Source: Pseudofrankia coriaricola
GTDB taxonomy: Bacteria; Actinomycetota; Actinomycetes; Frankiales; Frankiaceae
Reading direction: 5' to 3'
Assembly: GCF_001854805.1 (NCBI RefSeq)
Contig: NZ_MBLO01000036.1
Span: forward strand, 1 to 64,000
Length of the DNA: 64,000 nucleotides
The translations under genes were made by a program, and so were the position numbers. Shown here piece by piece: positions 8,392 to 59,790 of the stretch. Each line of letters opens with the position of its first letter. The stretch's first letter is position 1. Below the pieces are notes generated by a model. The model was not told where the DNA came from and did no database searches. It worked only from the letters and a program-made list of their open reading frames with translations.

Positions 8392-10797
8392 TCAGGTTGG
8401 GAAGTGCACGCTGGGGGTGTGAGCGAGGCGTCTTGGGTCGGGGAAGCCGAGGCTGGTGTAGCCGGGGGCGCGTTTGGTGAGTGATGCGGCGAGTACAGCG
8501 GTCAGTTCGTCGTGGTAGTCGTGGACTTCGGCGGTGGTCTTGCCGTCGTGGGGGCGCAGGATGCGGCCGGTGTACTGGACGAGGCGTCCCTTGTAGGAGA
8601 CGGGCGCGGCGAGGAACAGGGTGTCCAGGGCGGGGCAGTCGAATCCTTCGCCGGCGTAGGGGCCGGTGGCGACGGCGAGCAGGGGCGGACCGCCGGGTTG
8701 TGGCGTCAGGCGAGCGAGCGCGGCCGTCCTGTCTTTGGCACCCATGCCGCCGCGGAGCACGACAGGGTCGTGGCCCATGTCGCGCAGCGCGTCGGCGATT
8801 TTCTGTAGATGTGCGGTCCAGGTGGTGAGGACCAGGCAGTTTCTGCCTTGAGCCAGGGCGGCGGCGACATCCGCGGTGACTTGGCGGATGCGCTGGCTGT
8901 TCGCGATCAGGTCTTTGTAGATCTCGGCCATCCCGCCCGGGGCGGTCGGGTCGGCGTCGCCCGCGTAGCGGTAGCCGGTGGGGTGGACATGCAGCACAGG
9001 TGTTGGCCGTCCGTCGGGGGCGCTGCCGGGCAGCATGGGGATGCCATCGGCGGGCTCGTGGGGGCCGGTGATGGTGTGGCGGACCGGGCCGACGTGCAGG
9101 GTGATGAGGTCGTCGAGCTTGTCACGCCGGTATGGGGTGGCAGTCAGGCCGAGCCAGCGTCGGGCCGGGATTTGCTTGACCGCGTGGGTGAAGGCTGCGG
9201 CCGGAACGTGGTGGCACTCGTCAGCGACGACGAGGCCGTAGCCAGCGGTCAGTTCGGCGATGTCCTCGCGGCGGGCGAGGGTTTGCAGAGTAAGGATGTC
9301 GACGGTCCCGCGCAGTTTGGCGCGGCCGCCACCGAGCTGTCCTGCCTTGATCCCCAGGAACTCGGCGATCCGGGTCCGCCATTGGTCCGCGAGTGCCTTG
9401 CGGTCCACCAGGACCAGGGTCGGTGTCTGGTGAGCGGCGATGACCGCGCAGGCCATCACGGTCTTGCCGGAGCCCGGCGGCGCGACCAGGACGCCGAGGT
9501 CGTGTTCGGTCAGCTTCGTGAGGGCTTCGTGTTGTACGGCGGTGAGTGTGGCGGTGCAGGTAAATGCGTGTGCGATGCCAGTGACCCGTTCGTCGGTGAC
9601 GTCCAGCCGGCTGCCGGCCTGCTCGGTGAGCGAAGCGACGGTGGGGAGCATGCCGCGCGGCAGGATCAGGCCGCCGTCGAGGGTCTCGTCGTAGCTGTGC
9701 AGGAACCGGGGGATGCCGTAGGTGGAAGCGCGCATTCGCTGCCGTTCCTGGAACAACGGATTGTGCATGGAGGCAGCGTGCCGCAGCGTCGCGGCCAGGC
9801 CCGGGGTCAGCTCCGACTGCTCGACCCGGATGCCAGCTCCGAGCCGGGCGTGGAGGACAGCGGCGACGGCGGGCCGGGTCACGGTTGAGGTGGGGGAAGC
9901 GAGCGTGGTGGCCTCGGCGGCCACGGCGACCCGTCCGACGCGGTCGACGGCACGTCTGAGTTCCTGCGGGGTCATCCGGCCGAGCGTGGACAGGTAGGCC
10001 CACTGGTCGGCATGCGGCTCCAGGATGGCCAGGTCCAGGAAGACGGTTGCGCCGTTCTGTCGGGCAGGTTTGAACAGCGGCGCAGCGATCAGGTTTCCCA
10101 TGCCCCCTGTCGGGAGCATGTCCTGTGACGGGAACAGCCGGTCGTAGCTGGCCAGGCTCAGCCGGCCGCGTAGCGCCATCGCCTCCCGCAACAGTCCGCT
10201 ACCCAGGCGGCGGGCCGTCTCGGCGGGGACCGGCGAGGTGAAGAACACCCACGCGTGCGCGCCCGTACCCGACCGGGACACCTCCAAGGCGACAGGGACC
10301 TGGAGGGCGCGGCCGGCCTTGATGTACATCAGCGCGTCGAACATCGCCTCGGGCCCGTCGAAGTCGGCGGCCAGCCACCAGCAGCGGTCACCGTCCAGCA
10401 GCGGGTACACGCCGACGTGCATCTCGCCTTTCAGATGGGCGGCCAGAACGTCGGCGGTAAGCGGAAGGTAGTCGCGGTCCTCGTGTCGGACGCCCTTGCG
10501 CCATCCTCCGCGCACCGCCGGGACCCAGCCCGACTTGCCAGTGCGGCGGTTGTCGAACCGGACCGCGTACACGTCCGTGCGGGCGGCGAACAGTGCCCCG
10601 AAAAACGCCACCTTCGCCGCGGGCGGGGAGCCGTTGTTCACCAGCCCTGGAGGTGCTTCGAAGAAGGCCGCCTGCGTGGGGCCGGGCGGGGCCGCCTGCT
10701 GCGGGGTGAGCTTCAGCAAGCGCAGTAGGCGAGTATTCTCGGCCCGCAACCGCGCCAGCTCAGCCTCGACCTCCGGTGGAAGCTCCGCCACAGTCAC
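8392..10797 (-). CDS. TOTE-type AEP primase fused to SF2 DEAD/DEAH helicase
   Basis: An 801-residue two-part protein. Residues about 8-30 form a leucine-rich coiled coil. Residues about 55-290 are an archaeo-eukaryotic primase domain of the TOTE conflict-system class: D145-F-D147 (WLAADFDG) and S174...H181 (SRSGTGAH), with a third aspartate at about 255 (TVFLDLAIL). Residues about 415-760 are an SF2 helicase: Walker A APPGSGKT (439-446), DECH (526-529), TATP (552-555) and QYTGRILR (741-748). The protein ends soon after the helicase, with no nuclease domain. It starts at GTG 10797 (or GTG 10791), only 7 bp from a CRISPR repeat. Proteins of this class are thought to act in defence or element conflict; the mechanism is inferred. 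Confidence 0.85.
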
Positions 10798-51388: not shown

Positions 51389-53137
51389 TCAGCCGGGTGG
51401 TTCTGGCTGGCCGGGTGCTGATCCGCTGGCGGGCGGGCCGGTGCCGCCGGCTGCCGGGGCGCTGTGATCGTACTCGTCGTCTCCGTGGTCCTCTCGAAGG
51501 AGGGCGTCATCGAAGAGGGCGTCGGAGCGATCGCCGGGCCAGGCCGCCTCGGGGCAGACGGACACCTCGGCGGCGTGGCAGTCATCGACGGGCAGCCGGA
51601 TCGGCTCGCCGTCGTGTCGAGCGTCGTCCACGTGGACCGGAGGTTCCCAGATTCCGCGGTAAAGATGGTCGAAACTGCGGTGTAGCGGATTTCGGCGGGG
51701 CTTGCGCTGAGGATCAACGGAGTAGGGCGGGACGAAGTAGGGATGGCCGTCCGGGCCCATCATGACGGCCCATTCTCCTCGATGCACAACCCGGTGGTGA
51801 AAACCGCACAGTAGGACGGTGTTGGAAAGATCCGTCCTTCCGCCGCACATCCACGGAATGATGTGATGGGCGTCGGCGAACGCGGTTGTGCGCGTGCAGT
51901 TGGGAAAGGCACAGCCGCCGTCCCGGACGGCCAGGGCACGGCGTAGCCAGGGCGGGACGATCCGGCGGGTCCGGCCGAGTTCCAGCGGCATTCCCTCCTG
52001 GGACAGGAGGATATGGGTGACGTCGGCGTCGCAGCAGATCCTTTCCAGGACGGCGCGGGAAAGCGGCAGGCCGTGGCCGGTGGTGGCCGGGAGGGCGCCG
52101 TCCTGGCCGAGCAGCCCGTTCAGGGTGGTGGTGACGGCGACGTGTGGCCGGGTGCCCCGAGCAAGCGGCAGGGCGCCACTGGCCAGGACCCGTTCGGTGA
52201 TCTCGATCAGAGCATCGGCACGTCGCTGGGCGACCGTGCGGTGGTCCTCGGGGTTCTCGCCGAGCGGCTTGGGCTTGGACAGTGGCTCCAGCGCGGCGCG
52301 CAACGCCGCGGCACCCTCAGCATCCAGTGTCCCGTGCAGACGGGTCGTGCCGTCGGGCTGGTCGGTCAGGTGCAGCTCACGGCGCCGCGCCTGGTCACCG
52401 GTGTCGCCAGGGTCCGAGCCGGGCGGGTGCAGCTGGTCACGCAGCCGATCGCGGATCGTACGACCGAGCGCCGCCAGATCACCGGCATCCAGGACCTCCG
52501 CCTGGGCGAGCAGGAACTCCTCCGCCCAGTCCCGCTGCTCCCCCGGCGTGTCCGACGGCAGCGCCCGCAGCGCGCCGACGATGACGGCGGCCTGGTCCTG
52601 ACTGATCGCGGCCCGGGTGAGAGCCTGGCCGGTGCGGAGGTAGGCCGCGTCGAGGTCGCGGGCCAGGTCCACGGTTCGGCGGGCGTCAGCGGGGCGCGCC
52701 TTCAGCTGCGAGCGCACAAGCTCGACGGTCGAGGGCAGGTCCTCCTCCCCGAACACTCCCCGTAGGTCCCGCCCACCCAGGTCCCGCACAACCGCGAACA
52801 GCACCCCGGCCAGCAGCCTCCGCCCCTGTTCCACCCCGTCGAGGAACTCCAGCACCTCCAGCTCCGACAGCGCCCACAGGTTCACCCCGGCCAGCGCCTT
52901 CAAACCACCGACCACCGCGTCCAGCTGAGCCAGCGCGTGATGCCGCCCGCCAGAACCAATCCCATTCCCGCCAACGAAAAAGCCGCCGCCGAAATCCGGC
53001 GTCGCACCGTTTTCGCACCCGTTTCCTGCCACACCGCCGCCGACGGTCGGCGAGTCGGGATGGATTCCAGAATTTAGGCCGGCCGGTACCTGCGCCGACC
53101 GGTCTTCCGGTTCCTCGGAGACGGGCAGCTCGAGCAT
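51389..53137 (-). CDS. DUF222 HNH endonuclease
   Basis: 582 residues from the ATG at 53137, preceded by GTGGAGG. It belongs to the actinobacterial family joining an N-terminal helical DUF222 domain (about residues 60-370; LDAVVGGLKALAGVNLWALS, with RRTVDLARDLDAAYLRTGQA) to a C-terminal HNH nuclease. The HNH core is GGCAFPNCTRTTAFADAHHI, then WMCGGRTDLSNTVLLCGFHH, with the zinc cysteines and histidines intact. These proteins occur in many copies in actinobacteria, often near mobile DNA; the role is unproven. The gene lies just downstream of the TerD-nuclease fusion gene on the same strand. Confidence 0.9.
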   Translation of the reverse strand: MLELPVSEEPEDRSAQVPAGLNSGIHPDSPTVGGGVAGNGCENGATPDFGGGFFVGGNGIGSGGRHHALAQLDAVVGGLKALAGVNLWALSELEVLEFLDGVEQGRRLLAGVLFAVVRDLGGRDLRGVFGEEDLPSTVELVRSQLKARPADARRTVDLARDLDAAYLRTGQALTRAAISQDQAAVIVGALRALPSDTPGEQRDWAEEFLLAQAEVLDAGDLAALGRTIRDRLRDQLHPPGSDPGDTGDQARRRELHLTDQPDGTTRLHGTLDAEGAAALRAALEPLSKPKPLGENPEDHRTVAQRRADALIEITERVLASGALPLARGTRPHVAVTTTLNGLLGQDGALPATTGHGLPLSRAVLERICCDADVTHILLSQEGMPLELGRTRRIVPPWLRRALAVRDGGCAFPNCTRTTAFADAHHIIPWMCGGRTDLSNTVLLCGFHHRVVHRGEWAVMMGPDGHPYFVPPYSVDPQRKPRRNPLHRSFDHLYRGIWEPPVHVDDARHDGEPIRLPVDDCHAAEVSVCPEAAWPGDRSDALFDDALLREDHGDDEYDHSAPAAGGTGPPASGSAPGQPEPPG

Positions 53138-53413
53138 GCCTCCACGGAACCACATATTCGAACACCTGTCCAGCTCTCGCCATTTCGGCGAGCGCCACTG
53201 GCGGCATTTAGAAACCCGAAGGTAGATTCCTGGAGATCTAAGCCGGGAATGCCAAAGAATCAGCGGTCGATGCCATCGCCAAAGGTATCCCGAGGTCAAA
53301 GGCGCGCATCTGCCATCTGCGTGGCGATCGATGGCCTACTGCCCCGCGCCGAGGTCTCGGGCTCGGAAGCCGGACTACAGCATCGGCAACAAGCCCTCCG
53401 CGCAGCGTCGCCG
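53138..53413. other. Gap between the two nuclease genes
   Basis: 275 bp with no gene. It is AT-richer at 53140-53240 and probably carries the HNH gene's promoter. Confidence 0.4.
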
Positions 53414-55504
53414 CTAGGCAGATGACGACGTGGCGGTGGCCAGCGCGGTCACGACCGCGCCATGGAACTTCTCGACGGCCGTGACGACCGACGTGATGAA
53501 GGTGTCCTTGCCGCGGCCCCGTTTCGACCCGAGCGGCCAGCTCGCCGAGACCACGAATCGACGGATCTCATCCGGCGGGGCCATGAGCAGCACCGTAGGC
53601 CGGCGGCGGATCGTGGACAGCGTCTCGGCGCGGGTGCTGGTCTCGGCCCCGCTCGGGGCAGCGGCGTACACGGCCTCGGCCCGTAGGCGGCCGGAGGCAC
53701 CGTCGAGCCGGCCCAGCAACCAGTCGACGGCCGCACCCGGAGGCCGCCTTGGCGTCGGTTCGACCGGGAAGGAGCAGGTCACTTTGCTGGTGCGCAGGTT
53801 CGCTGTCAGGGTCAACGGCCCGGTGACCCCGGTCAGGGACAGCGACGCCGTGAGGCTACCCAGTCGGCACAGCTCATCGCCGAGGTACTCACGGCGCCGG
53901 AGGCGGTCCGTGCCGGCATGCACCAGCGGGACCACCGCCCGTCCCGCCAGACCGCCGAGGTGCAGGCACAGGTAGCTGGTCAGCTGGTCGAAACGCTCGA
54001 GGACGTTGGGCAGATCCTTGTCCGTCGCGCGCAGCGTGCCCTGCAGGACGCCGTCACGTATCCGCACCCAATGACGCCCCATGTCCTCGAAGATCTGCGC
54101 GCCGGAACGGGGATGCTCGAGGTACCGCAGCAGTTCCCGCAGGATGTAGGCCTGGGAGTTATCTGCGACGCCGTGCTGGGCGAGCAGCTGGCAGTGGTAG
54201 CGGATCTCTGCCCAGGAGAGATGGGAGAGGCCAACGTCGTCCGGTGCCGCGAGACTCTGCTCGAGCGGGTGGCCTTCGCCGACCGAAGTGATCTGGTTGG
54301 AGATCGTCAGCAGTCCGTCGAACCCCTCGTCGCGGGCGATCCGCAGGTAGGCCGTGAGCTGGCGGTCATTGAGGAGGTTCTTGCCGGTCTTGACTTCGAC
54401 CAGGCCGGTCCATGGTCGCTGGCCCGGCCGGTCAACCTGGATGACTCCGTCAGGACGGTACGCACTGCCGTTGAGAGCGAAGGACACCTCGGTGAAGGTC
54501 GTCAGGCGGCCGCCGCGTGGCGCTCGCATCCGGTCGCGGAAGATGTCGCCCAGTTCATCGACGCCCGCCAGCACAGCCAACAGCGCGGAGGTCGCCCGGC
54601 GCTCCTGCTCCTGGGCACCGCCGATGCCAGCCACCGGGAACAGCCGGGCCTGCTGCCACCCGCGCGCCACGCCGGCCAGTGGGGCGGGCGTGGACGGCGT
54701 GGCGAGGATGGAATCCGCACCAGGGATCTTGCGGATGTCGATCTGCTCGGTGGGCGGGTCGATGACGAGGTCGTCACCGTCACCCTCAGAGTCGCCGGCC
54801 TCGCCGGACATGAAACCGGGAGTCGCGACGTCGGCGCCGGTGGCGGCGTCGAGGCCATAGTCGGCGATGAGCGCATCGATCCCGCCGTCATAGCCCTGCC
54901 CCACGGCCCGGAACTTCCACTTTCCGTCCCGCCGGTAGATCTCCCCGAACACAAAAGCGCGCTCGGTTGTCGCGTCCGGGATGTCGAAACGCAGCAGCTC
55001 GGTGGAGTCGGAGCTGCGCATCAGTCGTAATCGCAGAAACGCCAACTGACCGAAGACGCCGCCCGTCGCCGGGTCCATGCTCGCGGCGAGCACGACCTTC
55101 TCGATGCTGTCCGCCAGGTCGTCCACATCGACTTCAATGACGTCGGCGAAGCCGGTGAACCGTTCGGAGGTGAAGGACACCTTGCCGCGCAGCCGGACCG
55201 CACCGTCACCGCCCGCCTTCTGGTTGTAGAAGACGAGGTCGTCGTTGGACCGGGCCTGGCCGTCGTCGCCGACGAGCACGGCGCTCACATCGGCGTCGAG
55301 TCGACGGCCCAGTTCGACGCCCCATTCGAGCATCACCGAAACGGACCCGAGCTCGTCGGCGAGCGCGCTAAGGGTGACGTTTCCCCCCCTTGCGCAATGC
55401 CGCGACGTTGGCAGCGCACATAGCGCGTCATGGTAGGGCAGCCAGCACCGCTTGGAGCCACCGGGCCACGATCGTGAGGACGGGGACCTGCGATCGCATG
55501 TCAT
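53414..55504 (-). CDS. TerD-domain protein fused to a PD-(D/E)XK nuclease-like domain
   Basis: Up to 696 residues counted from the ATG at 55504. Residues about 40-218 are a TerD domain: GGNVTLSALADELG, ADVSAVLVGDDGQARSNDDL, VFYNQ, RFDIPDATTERAFVFGEIYR, RDGKWKFRAVGQGYDGG. This is the calcium-binding stress-domain fold of tellurite-resistance clusters. A linker (about 219-300) leads to a C-terminal half containing E339 (TFTEVSF), D352 (YRPDGVI) and E370-V-K372 (LVEVKTGKN), the layout of PD-(D/E)XK nucleases, followed by LTAYLRIARDEGFDGLLTIS. The rest (about 410-690) is unassigned. The true start is unclear because of a G7 tract at 55383-55389; see findings. Confidence 0.72.
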   Translation of the reverse strand: MTCDRRSPSSRSWPGGSKRCWLPYHDALCALPTSRHCARGGNVTLSALADELGSVSVMLEWGVELGRRLDADVSAVLVGDDGQARSNDDLVFYNQKAGGDGAVRLRGKVSFTSERFTGFADVIEVDVDDLADSIEKVVLAASMDPATGGVFGQLAFLRLRLMRSSDSTELLRFDIPDATTERAFVFGEIYRRDGKWKFRAVGQGYDGGIDALIADYGLDAATGADVATPGFMSGEAGDSEGDGDDLVIDPPTEQIDIRKIPGADSILATPSTPAPLAGVARGWQQARLFPVAGIGGAQEQERRATSALLAVLAGVDELGDIFRDRMRAPRGGRLTTFTEVSFALNGSAYRPDGVIQVDRPGQRPWTGLVEVKTGKNLLNDRQLTAYLRIARDEGFDGLLTISNQITSVGEGHPLEQSLAAPDDVGLSHLSWAEIRYHCQLLAQHGVADNSQAYILRELLRYLEHPRSGAQIFEDMGRHWVRIRDGVLQGTLRATDKDLPNVLERFDQLTSYLCLHLGGLAGRAVVPLVHAGTDRLRRREYLGDELCRLGSLTASLSLTGVTGPLTLTANLRTSKVTCSFPVEPTPRRPPGAAVDWLLGRLDGASGRLRAEAVYAAAPSGAETSTRAETLSTIRRRPTVLLMAPPDEIRRFVVSASWPLGSKRGRGKDTFITSVVTAVEKFHGAVVTALATATSSSA

Positions 55505-55651: not shown

Positions 55652-56554
55652 TCAGACGGGTAGCAGGGTGTGCCCCGGCGAGGTGGGGTTGAGGCCGGCT
55701 GCGAAGCGTTCGGCGCGTTCGCGCAGGGTGTCGGCGGCGCCGTCGCGGCCGAGCATGATGACGTACTCGCCCGCGAGAATGCCGCGCAGCACGTCGGCGG
55801 CGACCTCGTCCAGCGGCTGCAGCGGCAGCTCGTGCCCCGCCTTCGCCGCCGCCTCGGTGAGCGACTCGATCGTCAGCGCCGGGGTTGCCCGCGGCGCCTC
55901 CCTGGCGAGCTCCGCCGGCCGGTTGCGGTCCGAGGTCCACAGGCCGGTGGCGAGCAGCCCCTTGCCGGCCGGCAGGAACAGCGACACCCCGATCGGGTGC
56001 CCCTGCTCGGTGAGCTGCGCGCCGAGGCACTCGGTCAGCGTCGCCACCGCAGCCTTGCTCGCCGCGTACACCGAGGCACCCGGCATCGGCGCGACCGCGC
56101 CGTCTCCGGACGAGGTGTTCACGACGTGCCCCGGCTCGCCGGAGGCGATCATGCGCGGCAGAAACGCCCGCACCCCGTTGGCGACGCCGTAGACGTTCAC
56201 TCCGAACGTCCAGCGCCAGTCGTTCGGTGTGGTCTCCCATGCCTTGGCCGACGGCGGCCCGACCCCGGCGTTGTTGACCAGCACATGGGTGCGCCCGTGG
56301 CGGCGGAACACGTCGTCGGCCAGTGCCTCGACCGACGCCGGGTCGGAGACGTCGGTGACGACGCCGCTGACCTCCGCGCCGGTAGCGGCGGACAGCTCCG
56401 CGGCGGTGGCGTCCAGCGCGCCCTTCTCGATGTCGGCGAGCACCACGACGGCGCCGGCCCGGCCGAACGCCTCGCCCAGGGCGCGGCCGATGCCGGCCGC
56501 CCCGCCGGTGATGACGACGACCTTGCCGGCGAAGTCCGTGAGGGTGGCGCTCAT
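55652..56554 (-). CDS. Short-chain dehydrogenase/reductase
   Basis: A 300-residue SDR with cofactor motif VVVITGGAAGIGRALGEAFG, HVLVNNAGVGPPSA, the catalytic serine in VVNTSSGDGAV and Y-x-x-x-K in ASVYAASKAAVATLTECLGA. It is longer than a core SDR, with a helical C-terminus (LREAPRATPALTIESLTEAA) typical of actinobacterial catabolic SDRs. The ATG at 56554 overlaps the amidohydrolase stop by 4 bp (ATGA), so translation is coupled. Probably the oxidation or reduction step of this operon. Confidence 0.92.
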   Translation of the reverse strand: MSATLTDFAGKVVVITGGAAGIGRALGEAFGRAGAVVVLADIEKGALDATAAELSAATGAEVSGVVTDVSDPASVEALADDVFRRHGRTHVLVNNAGVGPPSAKAWETTPNDWRWTFGVNVYGVANGVRAFLPRMIASGEPGHVVNTSSGDGAVAPMPGASVYAASKAAVATLTECLGAQLTEQGHPIGVSLFLPAGKGLLATGLWTSDRNRPAELAREAPRATPALTIESLTEAAAKAGHELPLQPLDEVAADVLRGILAGEYVIMLGRDGAADTLRERAERFAAGLNPTSPGHTLLPV

Positions 56555-57786
56555 GCCGTCCCGCTTTCCTCGCCCGAGCCGCTCGCCGAGCCGTGGATCT
56601 CCTCCGGGTCGGGGCCGATCCGGTCCACGACCGGGGCCAGCGCCGCGAGGTCGAACCCGTACAGGTCGACGGCGTTGAGGCCCAGGATGCGCCGTGCCTC
56701 CGCCTCGGGGACGTCGCCGAACCGCTCTCGCAGCCACTCCCGGGTGTGCGGCCAGGTGCCCTCCGGGTGCGGGTAGTCGTGGCCCCACATCAGCCGGTCG
56801 ACGCCGACGTCGTGCCGCCGCGCGACCTCGACCTCGCCCATCACCGAGCTCGCGAGCCAGATGTTGCGCCGGTAGTAGTCCGACGGCTTCATCGTCATCC
56901 CGTCCCGGAACGTCGACGGCCCGTACTTGCGAGTGGGGTGGTCGCCCTCCCACTTCGAGTCCATCCGGGTGAGGACGTCCGGCACCCACCAGGCACCGTT
57001 CTCCGCGATCGCGTACCGCAGCGTGGGGTGGCGCTCGAAGACGCCGCCGAGCAGCAGCGCCCAGAACGGCCGGGCGGCCCACCAGTAGGCCTCCATGGCG
57101 TAGATCGCGAGCAGGCCCGGCCCCCAGGTGTAGTCGGTCGGGCCGACGCCGGAGTGGGTGTGCACCACCACGCCCGCGTCCGCGCACGCCGCCCACAGCG
57201 GGTCGTAGACCGGGTCGTTGTAGGCCGGGTAACTGCCCCACTTGGCCGGGATCATGATGCCGCCGCGCAGGCCGTGCTCGGCCGTCCACTCGACCAGCCC
57301 GACCGCCGCGGCGACGTCGTGAAGCGCCGGCACGATCGCGACGCCGTAGCGGCGGTGCGGGTCGTGCTGGCAGAACTCGGCCAGCCACCGGTTGTGCGCC
57401 CAGGCGCCGGCCATGACCAGCTCCGGGTCGCAGTCGCCCGACAGGCCGAGCCCCGAGCCGAACGGCGACGCCGAGACGCCGCCGACGCCGGCCGCGTCCG
57501 CGTCCGGGAAGACGACCTCGGCGGCCACACCCTCGCCGTCGAGCTCCTTGGTACGCACCACCGGGTCCCAGGACCCGGCCATGCCGCCGTGGCCGCCGAT
57601 CTCGGAGTCCCACTCGGCGAGGAACCTGCGGTGCTCGTCCTGGTTGATCAGCTGGGACTGCGTGACGTCGTTCGCGAGGGACTCGTCGAACGCCGCCCGG
57701 TACTTCGGGTCGATGTACTCGCGGTACCGCTCGGGCGGCAGGCCCGCGTGGGTGTCGGTGGAGATCAGCAGGTACTTCTCACTCAT
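56551..57786 (-). CDS. Amidohydrolase family 2 protein
   Basis: 411 residues, complete. It begins KYLLISTDTHAGLPPERYRE with the N-terminal metal motif (D-T-H), then GIMIPAKWGSYPAYND, VVVHTHSGVGPTDY (metal histidine), HPTLRYAIAENGAWWVPDVL and MWGHDYPHPEGTWPHTREWL (catalytic aspartate). Members are decarboxylases or hydrolases of ring-derived acids. Its GGGAG-preceded ATG at 57786 lies 19 bp after the acetoacetate-decarboxylase-like gene. It is the intact counterpart of the truncated gene at 7318. Confidence 0.9.
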   Translation of the reverse strand: MSEKYLLISTDTHAGLPPERYREYIDPKYRAAFDESLANDVTQSQLINQDEHRRFLAEWDSEIGGHGGMAGSWDPVVRTKELDGEGVAAEVVFPDADAAGVGGVSASPFGSGLGLSGDCDPELVMAGAWAHNRWLAEFCQHDPHRRYGVAIVPALHDVAAAVGLVEWTAEHGLRGGIMIPAKWGSYPAYNDPVYDPLWAACADAGVVVHTHSGVGPTDYTWGPGLLAIYAMEAYWWAARPFWALLLGGVFERHPTLRYAIAENGAWWVPDVLTRMDSKWEGDHPTRKYGPSTFRDGMTMKPSDYYRRNIWLASSVMGEVEVARRHDVGVDRLMWGHDYPHPEGTWPHTREWLRERFGDVPEAEARRILGLNAVDLYGFDLAALAPVVDRIGPDPEEIHGSASGSGEESGTA

Positions 57787-57805
57787 GGCCGGTGCACTCC
57801 CGCCG

Positions 57806-58570
57806 TCAGTGGTCGTAGCGGCTGTGGGCGAACGGCTCGAAGGCGACCGGGTCGACCGGGCCGACGACGCTGGTCCTGGCCTTCGACGACCGGGTCGTCC
57901 ACGTGATCGAGACGGTCTCGAGCATGGGCAGGTCGACGATCGGGGCCGTCGGCTCGTCGCGCAGCACGAGCTTGCCCTCGACCTTCTCGACGGTGACCGG
58001 AGTGCGGACCTGGTCGTAGCGGACGAGCAGCGGGTCGCCGTCGAAGCCGGTGCCGGACACAGCGGGCATGAACTTGTACCACCACTGCGACGACGGGTAG
58101 GGCTCCGGCACCGGCAGGGCACCGGTGACGTCACCGACGATCTCCACGAATGTGACGCCGTTGCGGGTGATCCGGCCCTCGACGTGGTCGCCAGAGCGGG
58201 TGAGCTCGATGTCGGCGAGCTTCTTCGGCTCGCCGTTGCGCTCCCGGCTGATCGCGAGCGCGCTTTCGAGGTCGATCGGGATGAGCAGCGGGTACTCCCC
58301 CGTCACACCGTCGTACACCGCGTCGACGGCGAGGAAGCCGACCATCTCCTTGTACCGGTGGGCGCCGAACATCAGGTCGATGTCGCTGACCCGGACGTGG
58401 ACGCGGGGCTCGGCCGGCGGGGTCAGCGGCGGCGGCAGGAGGGCGGCCAGCACGTCCGGGTCGGTCAGGTAGACGACCTCCAGGGACGGGATCGGCGGCA
58501 GGCCGGCTCCCAGGTCCTGCTGCTCGCCATCGGATAACTTCTTGACCTCATGTACCCACCGGTTGGCCAT
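57806..58570 (-). CDS. Acetoacetate decarboxylase family protein
   Basis: A 254-residue ADC-fold protein. The ADC signature is visible: EYPLLIPIDLESALAISRER followed by NGEPKKLADIELTRSGDHVE, with adjacent lysines at the Schiff-base position (usual E-x-x-G-x-P-K-K). The N-terminal EVVYLTDPDVLAALLPPPL is also typical. It could decarboxylate, hydrate or aldol-cleave a beta-keto compound. GAAGGAGA precedes the ATG. It lies in the operon between the Rieske oxygenase and the amidohydrolase. Confidence 0.88.
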   Translation of the reverse strand: MANRWVHEVKKLSDGEQQDLGAGLPPIPSLEVVYLTDPDVLAALLPPPLTPPAEPRVHVRVSDIDLMFGAHRYKEMVGFLAVDAVYDGVTGEYPLLIPIDLESALAISRERNGEPKKLADIELTRSGDHVEGRITRNGVTFVEIVGDVTGALPVPEPYPSSQWWYKFMPAVSGTGFDGDPLLVRYDQVRTPVTVEKVEGKLVLRDEPTAPIVDLPMLETVSITWTTRSSKARTSVVGPVDPVAFEPFAHSRYDH

Positions 58571-58674
58571 GGGATCTCCTTCACAGACGTAGATCTGGCG
58601 GTGGTTGGTTCTCGGGTGACGTCTCGGGGGATGGCCCGCGCACCGGGGCGGCGCTCAGGCTCCGGGGCCGGTAC

Positions 58675-59790
58675 TCAGGCGTCGGGGTAGGAGTAGAACT
58701 GCTCGCACCAGCGGCGGTGCTCGGTGACGCCCTTCTCGGAAGGCCGCAGGACCGGCGGGTCCTTGTAGATCTTGTTCTCCCAGATTGGGAAGTCCTGGCT
58801 GACGCCGGCGACGAAGCTGTCGGCCGCGGCCTCGGCGGTGCCATCGCCGAGCGAACGCGGCGAGGTGAAGATCCACCGGCAGTGGACGTGCTCCTCGTCG
58901 ATCGGCGTCGTGGAGCTCAGGAACGTGGTGTAATCGCGCACCCGCAGCACGCCGAGGCCCAGGCCGAAGCCCTCCCGGACGAAGGCGCCGTCGAGGGCGA
59001 CGGTGCGCTTGTGGTGCCCGTCGGTGTGGAACTCCTCCTCCGGGACCGCCTCGGTGCCGTGCACGAACTTGAAGTGCGGGGTGTCGACGTTGTTCTCCGC
59101 CATCTCCTGGCAGCAGCTGGCGACCTCGAAGTCGCGGACGACGATGGGTGACCAGTCGTCGTCGTGGAACTCGGGCACCTCGGGCACGTCGTAGAAGGGC
59201 TCCTTGCCCTCCAGGTGGTGCCAGGCCCAGATCATGTGGTTGCGCTCGAGCGTCGGGTAGGTGCGGGCGGTGGCCGTCTTCGGGATGTGGTCGACGTCGT
59301 CGTAGGGCACCTCGACGCAGGTGCCGCTCTGGCCGTCGAACCGCCAGCCGTGGAACGGGCACTGCAGGGTGCCGCCGACGACCCGGCCGCCGGCACCCAG
59401 GTGGGCGCCCAGGTGGGGGCAGTAGGCGTCCAGCAGGTGCGGGGTGCCGTCGGCGCCCCGGAAGAGCACCAGGTCGCGGCCGAAGTAGTACAGCGGCTTG
59501 ACCTGGCCGGGCGCGAGCTCGTCGGCGGTGGCGACGATGAACCAGCCGTTCGGGATCGGGAAGGGGAAACGCGGCCGCCGCTCGCGGCGGACCCGGTAGC
59601 GCATCGAGAGGTCGGTGACGGTGTCCGGACACTGCGGCATCGGGAGGCCGACCAGCTCCGTGAGGGGCCCAGTAACGGTCGGGACCTCGACACCCTGGTA
59701 GAGGCTGTCCGCGGGAGGCTGCGCAGGCTGTCCCAAGGGTTCCGCCCGTGTCGCCTGCTGGGATAAGCGAGCCTCGCTCGAGATCGTCAT
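58675..59790 (-). CDS. Rieske non-heme iron oxygenase, KshA-like
   Basis: A 371-residue oxygenase subunit. It has the Rieske [2Fe-2S] cluster ligands CPHLGAHLG and CPFHGWRFDG, and the mononuclear iron site in AENNVDTPHFKFVHGTEAVP (D-x-x-H-x-x-x-x-H). The layout resembles 3-ketosteroid 9-alpha-hydroxylase (KshA) and other single-component-oxygenase monooxygenases. It would oxidise a ring or a steroid-like substrate with a separate reductase, not seen in the window. GGAGG precedes the ATG at 59790. First gene of a four-gene operon. Confidence 0.92.
   Translation of the reverse strand: MTISSEARLSQQATRAEPLGQPAQPPADSLYQGVEVPTVTGPLTELVGLPMPQCPDTVTDLSMRYRVRRERRPRFPFPIPNGWFIVATADELAPGQVKPLYYFGRDLVLFRGADGTPHLLDAYCPHLGAHLGAGGRVVGGTLQCPFHGWRFDGQSGTCVEVPYDDVDHIPKTATARTYPTLERNHMIWAWHHLEGKEPFYDVPEVPEFHDDDWSPIVVRDFEVASCCQEMAENNVDTPHFKFVHGTEAVPEEEFHTDGHHKRTVALDGAFVREGFGLGLGVLRVRDYTTFLSSTTPIDEEHVHCRWIFTSPRSLGDGTAEAAADSFVAGVSQDFPIWENKIYKDPPVLRPSEKGVTEHRRWCEQFYSYPDA

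Follow-up and report, generated by a model that had tools for sequence, protein, structure and literature searches.

A TerD domain with substituted calcium ligands fused to a predicted PD-(D/E)XK nuclease in Pseudofrankia coriaricola

Two groups of described proteins come closest to the gene analysed here. The first is the TerD family, of which Klebsiella TerD (2kxt) and a Streptomyces protein (3ibz) are the solved relatives by sequence. Passages of earlier publications link the ter operon to oxidative stress and to the inhibition of phages (PMC8123226), propose TerD and TerB as possible sensors of a nucleoside-type signal of an incoming threat (PMC7824862, PMC7159879), and refer to an anti-phage system with McrBC that depends on TerD (PMC3710099). 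The second group comprises the VRR-NUC and RecB/Cas4-like nucleases. In RecB/Cas4 enzymes the ExK motif is followed by Q-x3-Y, and members of this clade have a histidine or cysteine cluster in the upstream helix and a helicase partner. A sensor-plus-nuclease plan is also seen in Card1 and Can2, which combine a CARF sensor with a PD-(D/E)XK domain.

The gene described below bears on the question of what TerD proteins do and how Ter systems relate to DNA processing, as it physically joins TerD to a predicted nuclease. TerD fusions are of a known kind; the joining to this uncharacterised PD-(D/E)XK family is new as far as the literature searched extends, no paper naming it having been found among PMC papers on TerD in connection with nucleases, fusions or DNA damage. 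Anantharaman 2012, reportedly the central paper on Ter systems, was outside the scope of this search. A built-in comparison makes the question testable in common laboratory strains: a bare version of the nuclease is present in genomes that gave no TerD match.

Gene layout and coding evidence

The window is the whole 64,000-nucleotide stretch that was analysed, taken from the 11.2 Mb genome of Pseudofrankia coriaricola (Frankiaceae). Positions 53414–55504 of the minus strand form a single unbroken ORF of 696 codons, and reading the same interval on the plus strand meets internal stops. An earlier note, made from the sequence, had described an ORF here with a TerD domain at about residues 40–218, followed by a probable nuclease with D352, E370 and K372. 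Pfam places TerD at residues 38–216, and the three residues are indeed found at those positions. The features are as follows.

53414–55504, minus strand: whole gene, TerD-PD-(D/E)XK fusion protein of 696 amino acids (ORF call and homologues)
54857–55393, minus strand: TerD domain, residues 38–216, with K and V at the positions of the Klebsiella TerD Ca2+ ligands D78 and N79 (Pfam PF02342 and calcium-site table)
54665–54844, minus strand: linker, residues 221–280, pLDDT below 50 (AlphaFold, model residues 187–246)
54173–54616, minus strand: predicted PD-(D/E)XK core, about residues 297–444, with the E301 helix, a first strand ending before E339, P351-D352-G353, E370-V-K372-T-G, Q382...Y386 and N403 (invariant residues, secondary structure and VIA-align)
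54446–54454, minus strand: P351-D352-G353 codons, D352 being 54449–54451 (invariance)
54389–54397, minus strand: E370-V371-K372 codons (invariance)
53435–54172, minus strand: C-terminal helical and alpha/beta region, about residues 445–690, conserved within the nuclease family (alignments and model)

The very low model confidence of the linker is as would be expected for a disordered stretch.

Intact homologues of equal two-domain layout are present in nine other Frankiaceae genomes, their nuclease parts being 49–52% identical to that of the window. Values of dN/dS were 0.03–0.16 in four pairs of relatives and 0.18–0.36 between the window gene and one relative (L035), a pair for which dS exceeds 1. 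Judged from these ratios, the TerD part and the nuclease part are both under purifying selection; dN/dS of the TerD part was lower than that of the nuclease core in three of five pairs and higher in two. GC by codon position is 0.69/0.51/0.85 over the gene, with the maximum at position 3. Residues 1–34 (window 55403–55504) depart from this pattern (0.50/0.74/0.74): they lack the coding signature and any clear counterpart among relatives, yet no in-frame ATG, GTG or TTG alternative occurs before residue 57, so that the true start is uncertain.

The TerD domain and its calcium site

The Pfam model PF02342 matches residues 38–216 with E 1.8e-42 and 145.4 bits against a cut-off of 25.3, which places the domain in the TerD family; besides TerD, nothing in Pfam matches the full window protein at E <= 1. 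The whole domain aligns with the family (E 1e-31 to the Klebsiella protein) and retains its WKFRAVGQGY motif. It differs from the family in being joined to a nuclease and in the substitution of two calcium-ligand positions.

Positions of the Ca2+ site were taken from a passage on Klebsiella TerD in PMC8779313 and tabulated for 20 fused TerDs, including that of the window, and for the 13 other TerD matches of the window genome. Both D78 and N79 are lost in all 20 fused domains, lysine taking the place of D78 in 17 of them. D42 is kept in 20/20 and D40 in 17/20; at the E89 position, 17 domains have D, two have A and one has E. With D78 and N79 replaced throughout, the fused TerD is unlikely to bind calcium like Klebsiella TerD. 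This loss speaks against calcium binding and not against TerD membership. Nor is it unique to the fusion, since eight of the 13 other TerDs of the window genome have also diverged there; of the remaining five, four have all ten site positions intact and one differs at two.

The same genome joins TerD to TerF-type vWA, TPR, AIM24 and CAP domains. These four types (TerD-vWA/TerF, TerD-TPR, TerD-AIM24, TerD-CAP) likewise couple TerD to a second domain, but their identified partners include no nuclease family. The genome also holds a further TerD fusion of 678 amino acids (L158:1501–3534, contig C234), whose C-terminal 485 residues have no Pfam match at E <= 0.01 and whose TerD likewise lacks most calcium-site residues.

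The predicted nuclease and its tail

Residues 283–690 represent a family with a length of about 410 residues. Of 216 loci confirmed by a genome scan, the best 80 were compared, and all of these are actinobacterial by record title. No match over cut-off was found for the family in Pfam, NCBIfam or PADLOC. Residues 283–696 were aligned with 12, then 64 sequences, and later with 103 distinct sequences including distant ones. Among the 103, 24 positions are invariant, including E301 (in the upstream helix), E339, P351, D352, W365, E370, K372, Q382, Y386, N403 and W431. Conservation of D352, E370 and K372 in homologues had been set beforehand as a check on the nuclease assignment, and all three are present in 103/103. 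The P-D-G, E-x-K and Q-x3-Y motifs are invariant in the 64-sequence alignment; the G of P-D-G is found in 100 of the 103, and Q382 and Y386 are kept in every one, in agreement with the RecB/Cas4 Q-x3-Y rule.

An AlphaFold model of the nuclease part, built from the 64 sequences, had a mean pLDDT of 91.1 and a pTM of 0.90. In model numbering, its elements run as a helix (H15–32), a strand (E51–56), a short hairpin, a strand right after D352 (E71–76, D at 70), a strand with E370 and with K372 just past its end (E83–89; E88, K90 just after), a helix with Q382 and Y386 (H98–111) and a last strand (E115–120). A second helix (H34–44) and the short strands E60–62 and E65–67 are additions to the core. 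The predicted fold has the PD-(D/E)XK alpha-beta-beta-beta-alpha-beta order; D is placed at strand two of this core and ExK on strand three. The earlier note had expected a prediction for the C-terminal half to return this fold with D352, E370 and K372 clustered; the element order was recovered, and as far as strand order goes the three residues would be co-located.

VIA-align of model residues 18–160 gave AF1548 (Z 9.1, rmsd 3.1, 113 aligned), followed by Card1/Can2, PaqCI, FokI and BamHI at Z 6–8. The structures listed are largely PD-(D/E)XK proteins; RPB5, SfsA, XisH-type and other non-restriction proteins are listed as well, and Z values of 7–9 are near the background of which the tool warns. 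Motif and topology were therefore given more weight than these ranks. Foldseek of the nuclease part against the PDB returned nothing at E <= 0.001, and the top viral Foldseek match was a PD-(D/E)XK protein (E 1.7e-4).

Sub-threshold Pfam matches among the 64 members were to VRR_NUC (21 members, best E 0.0022), TnsA (15, best E 0.0038) and Tox-REase-7 (12, best E 0.044). In ten relatives inspected in detail, scores were 12–16 bits against cut-offs of 23.8–26.5 and three of the ten matched none of these families; all ten sub-threshold stretches inspected overlap the D...ExK region. The nuclease domain of the window protein itself has no Pfam match at E <= 1 and thus stays below the VRR_NUC, TnsA and Tox-REase-7 cut-offs. 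From the invariant motifs, the core order in the model and the largely PD-(D/E)XK structures listed, residues from 283 on are very probably a PD-(D/E)XK nuclease, and the assignment made in the earlier note holds as a prediction.

Compared with the VRR-NUC and RecB/Cas4-like nucleases, the order PDG...ExKTG followed by Q-x3-Y is shared and the weak Pfam matches fall on that stretch; the VRR_NUC structure 4qbn aligns with the predicted core at Z 6.3 (rmsd 4.2, 90 aligned). The present family differs in falling below every curated cut-off seen and in carrying an extra tail of about 245 residues. Card1 and Can2 reach Z 6.6–7.7 for the nuclease part and have an analogous sensor-plus-nuclease plan, but Pfam finds no CARF match here and the N-terminal domain is TerD, so that the likeness is one of plan only.

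For the tail, VIA-align gave 2a8e (Z 8.2, rmsd 4.7, 179 aligned) as well as 6vu7 (Z 7.4, rmsd 3.9, 128 aligned), which would suggest a YbjN-like or DUF1054-like fold. A 12-sequence profile comparison with YbjN gave 4.3% probability over 25 columns (E 0.0094, from a single comparison), and neither fold was assigned to the tail. Matches to ribosomal S15 (E 0.55 and 0.65) and isolated weak hits in unrelated families (PhnG, XAP5 and others in Pfam; some in NCBIfam; AbiEii at 0.0074 and two more in PADLOC) were taken as chance.

Distribution, genomic setting and possible role

Nine of the 80 best loci are fusions and 71 are without TerD. A midpoint-rooted tree was computed for the 103 distinct sequences, after removal of duplicates and of the short L131; it does not include L002–L010 (same contigs as L035–L043), the fragments L133 and L134 (below threshold) or L170–L195. 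TerD is found on 20 of the 103 sequences and absent from 83; the fused sequences group in a single clade (support 0.98). They derive from Frankiaceae, from Streptomyces plasmids and Streptomyces-type genomes, and from Rhodococcus plasmids and one related genome; "Streptomyces-type" and "Rhodococcus-type" denote genomes whose genus was assigned from the clade shared with named plasmid copies. Nuclease-only versions are intact in many actinobacterial genera.

Presence of the gene is patchy. It is intact in 10 of 35 Frankiaceae genomes (two others have nothing but fragments) and in one of eight genomes of the window's own genus; of 150 genomes surrounding a Streptomyces-type one, 36 gave a match. 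Among 72,556 plasmid records it occurs on 11; ten of these copies are annotated as TerD family protein and one is without annotation, and the TerD domain was confirmed in the four plasmid copies inspected. A sibling genome (G002; L032, about 8783–9450) holds a decayed copy, two pieces at 84–87% DNA identity with the middle missing and the end gone, in a stretch otherwise dissimilar to the window. Patchy presence and this decayed copy indicate that the gene is dispensable. In two siblings, both the TerD-nuclease gene and the neighbouring DUF222-HNH gene are missing from the matching stretch examined. No copy was found in the phage collection, and three candidate stretches among viral contigs were not confirmed; a phage origin was rejected on these grounds. 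In one genome (G558, contigs 31 and 34) the nuclease domain is present twice, each time at full length.

The architecture of the gene was compared with the TerD repertoire of its host in one draw of 396 Actinobacteria genomes, 19 with a nuclease match and 20 with TerD. The nuclease is present in 7 of the 20 TerD-positive genomes, fused in all seven, and in 12 of the 376 TerD-negative ones, fused in none (Fisher p 9.5e-6, uncorrected for kinship; two of the 12, G073 and G140, have partial copies only). The seven comprise five genomes of one genus, one other and that of the window. The fusion alone makes a genome TerD-positive, yet each of the seven holds at least 11 further TerD matches. All 20 fusion genomes checked have 10–20 TerD matches, fusion included. 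A TerD match was found in 0/29 bare-nuclease genomes checked; with TerD in no more than 20 of the 396 drawn genomes, this result alone has a chance probability of 0.22. The match between architecture and TerD repertoire is confounded by kinship.

The reading that we tentatively favour, while giving it somewhat less than an even chance, is that a calcium-blind TerD adaptor links the Ter stress apparatus with a RecB/VRR-like nuclease. The protein would be a three-part enzyme made of TerD, a flexible linker and a nuclease of about 410 residues with its alpha/beta tail, the metal-dependent PD-(D/E)XK part carrying the RecB/VRR-like signature D352, E370-x-K372, Q382-x3-Y386. This nuclease would have gained its N-terminal TerD once, in one actinobacterial lineage. 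As the fold is kept and the calcium ligands are lost, the fused TerD is most likely a calcium-independent adaptor; it may bind other TerD/Ter proteins or their ligand and so position the nuclease at the stress apparatus for the cutting of damaged or foreign DNA. A more specific version, doubtful as a whole, takes the TerD with the broken calcium site as a constitutive dock that would recruit the nuclease onto calcium-regulated TerD assemblies, turning stress sensing by other TerDs into localised DNA cutting; the fused form would then have spread among TerD-rich Actinobacteria, with TerD-less relatives keeping the bare nuclease.

In favour of the tethering reading are the invariant D352, E370 and K372, the sub-threshold Pfam matches on the D...ExK region, the core order and structural matches of the model, the single fusion clade, the replaced ligands D78 and N79, the TerD-rich background of the fusion genomes checked and the other TerD fusions of the window genome. 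Several results are counted against it: no curated nuclease model is reached, the VIA-align scores are near background and Foldseek gave no PDB match at E <= 0.001, most other TerDs of the window genome have diverged at the calcium site too, the repertoire pattern is confounded by kinship, and the gene is dispensable. Nor was a conserved partner gene found, the best neighbour cluster recurring in 13 of 88 loci (81 with the nuclease gene found) and the best neighbour in 5 of 22 Streptomyces-type loci, in 21 of which the gene itself was located. Neighbours shared among the 88 loci reflect within-genus synteny (Kribbella, Lentzea) or scattered common families. This lack of a partner, common to both forms, agrees with the main rival, in which the enzyme is an autonomous DNA repair or DNA-clearance nuclease and TerD only stabilises or oligomerises it, with no link to a Ter network. 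It is the main rival because the bare form persists, intact and in many genera, in genomes where no TerD was found, and the enzyme can hence exist without a Ter system. Around 13 Streptomyces-type copies, transport, sugar and further metabolic families predominate among the Pfam families shown (25 of 66), which also fits. We regard such a role as a serious possibility, set against two observations: the fused form was seen exclusively in genomes rich in TerD, those of Frankiaceae, Streptomyces-type and Rhodococcus-type hosts, and its TerD part is about as conserved as the nuclease core.

A second alternative to tethering is a restriction gene that acts alone against phages or plasmids and whose TerD would sense an infection-related ligand and trigger the nuclease. 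The patchy presence in Frankiaceae and around the Streptomyces-type genome, the occurrence on plasmids and the lack of the gene at the corresponding position in two siblings are counted for it, as are the published passages on TerD/TerB sensing and on the McrBC system cited above. HINT polymorphic toxin, RES/HTH and ThiF-Mov34 genes are kinds often seen in conflicts, and such genes are held by three of the four plasmid neighbourhoods inspected. The earlier note had suggested that genome neighbours might reveal a defence-island setting; this did not emerge from PADLOC for the Streptomyces-type copies examined. Near 13 such copies (drawn from 20 loci), 95 proteins, after removal of nuclease-family members, gave 4 matches at E <= 1e-10, compared with 5 among 105 proteins of the control stretches (11 of 16; one, in G501, 0.5 Mb away and ten 1 Mb away). 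The window protein has no PADLOC match at E <= 1 and no NCBIfam match, three single weak PADLOC matches occur among 64 relatives, and no copy was confirmed in the phage and viral collections. A defence role thus fits printed ideas on Ter systems and receives no support from the neighbours of the 13 Streptomyces-type copies; we consider it unlikely.

The earlier note had also proposed that the fusion and the next gene form a two-nuclease, TerD-gated module. The DUF222-HNH gene is there as described, at 51389–53299 from its first start codon (DUF222 1.7e-44, HNH 5.9e-5 in Pfam), on the same strand and with 114 bases between the ORFs. This adjacency is in favour of a module, but DUF222 has 16 matches in the window genome, two pairs of which are pieces of one frame, giving about 14 places. 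Around the G002 remnant, only the two pieces of the TerD-nuclease gene were found from the window, and no DUF222-HNH gene. With about 14 places and no conserved neighbour in the loci compared, the DUF222-HNH gene is one of many and no constant partner; the module was rejected as highly improbable.

Two minor observations concern the surroundings of the gene. In the window, positions 55652–59790 hold a steroid/lipid-catabolism-like cluster (SDR, amidohydrolase, acetoacetate decarboxylase-like and KshA-type oxygenase genes), which is kept in the two siblings that lack the TerD-nuclease and DUF222-HNH genes. On the Rhodococcus plasmid pRZP3 (L138, 12288–16139), the fusion gene precedes a run of hypothetical, ThiF-type, Mov34/MPN and DUF6602 genes of equal orientation that looks like a conflict-type ubiquitin-like cassette.
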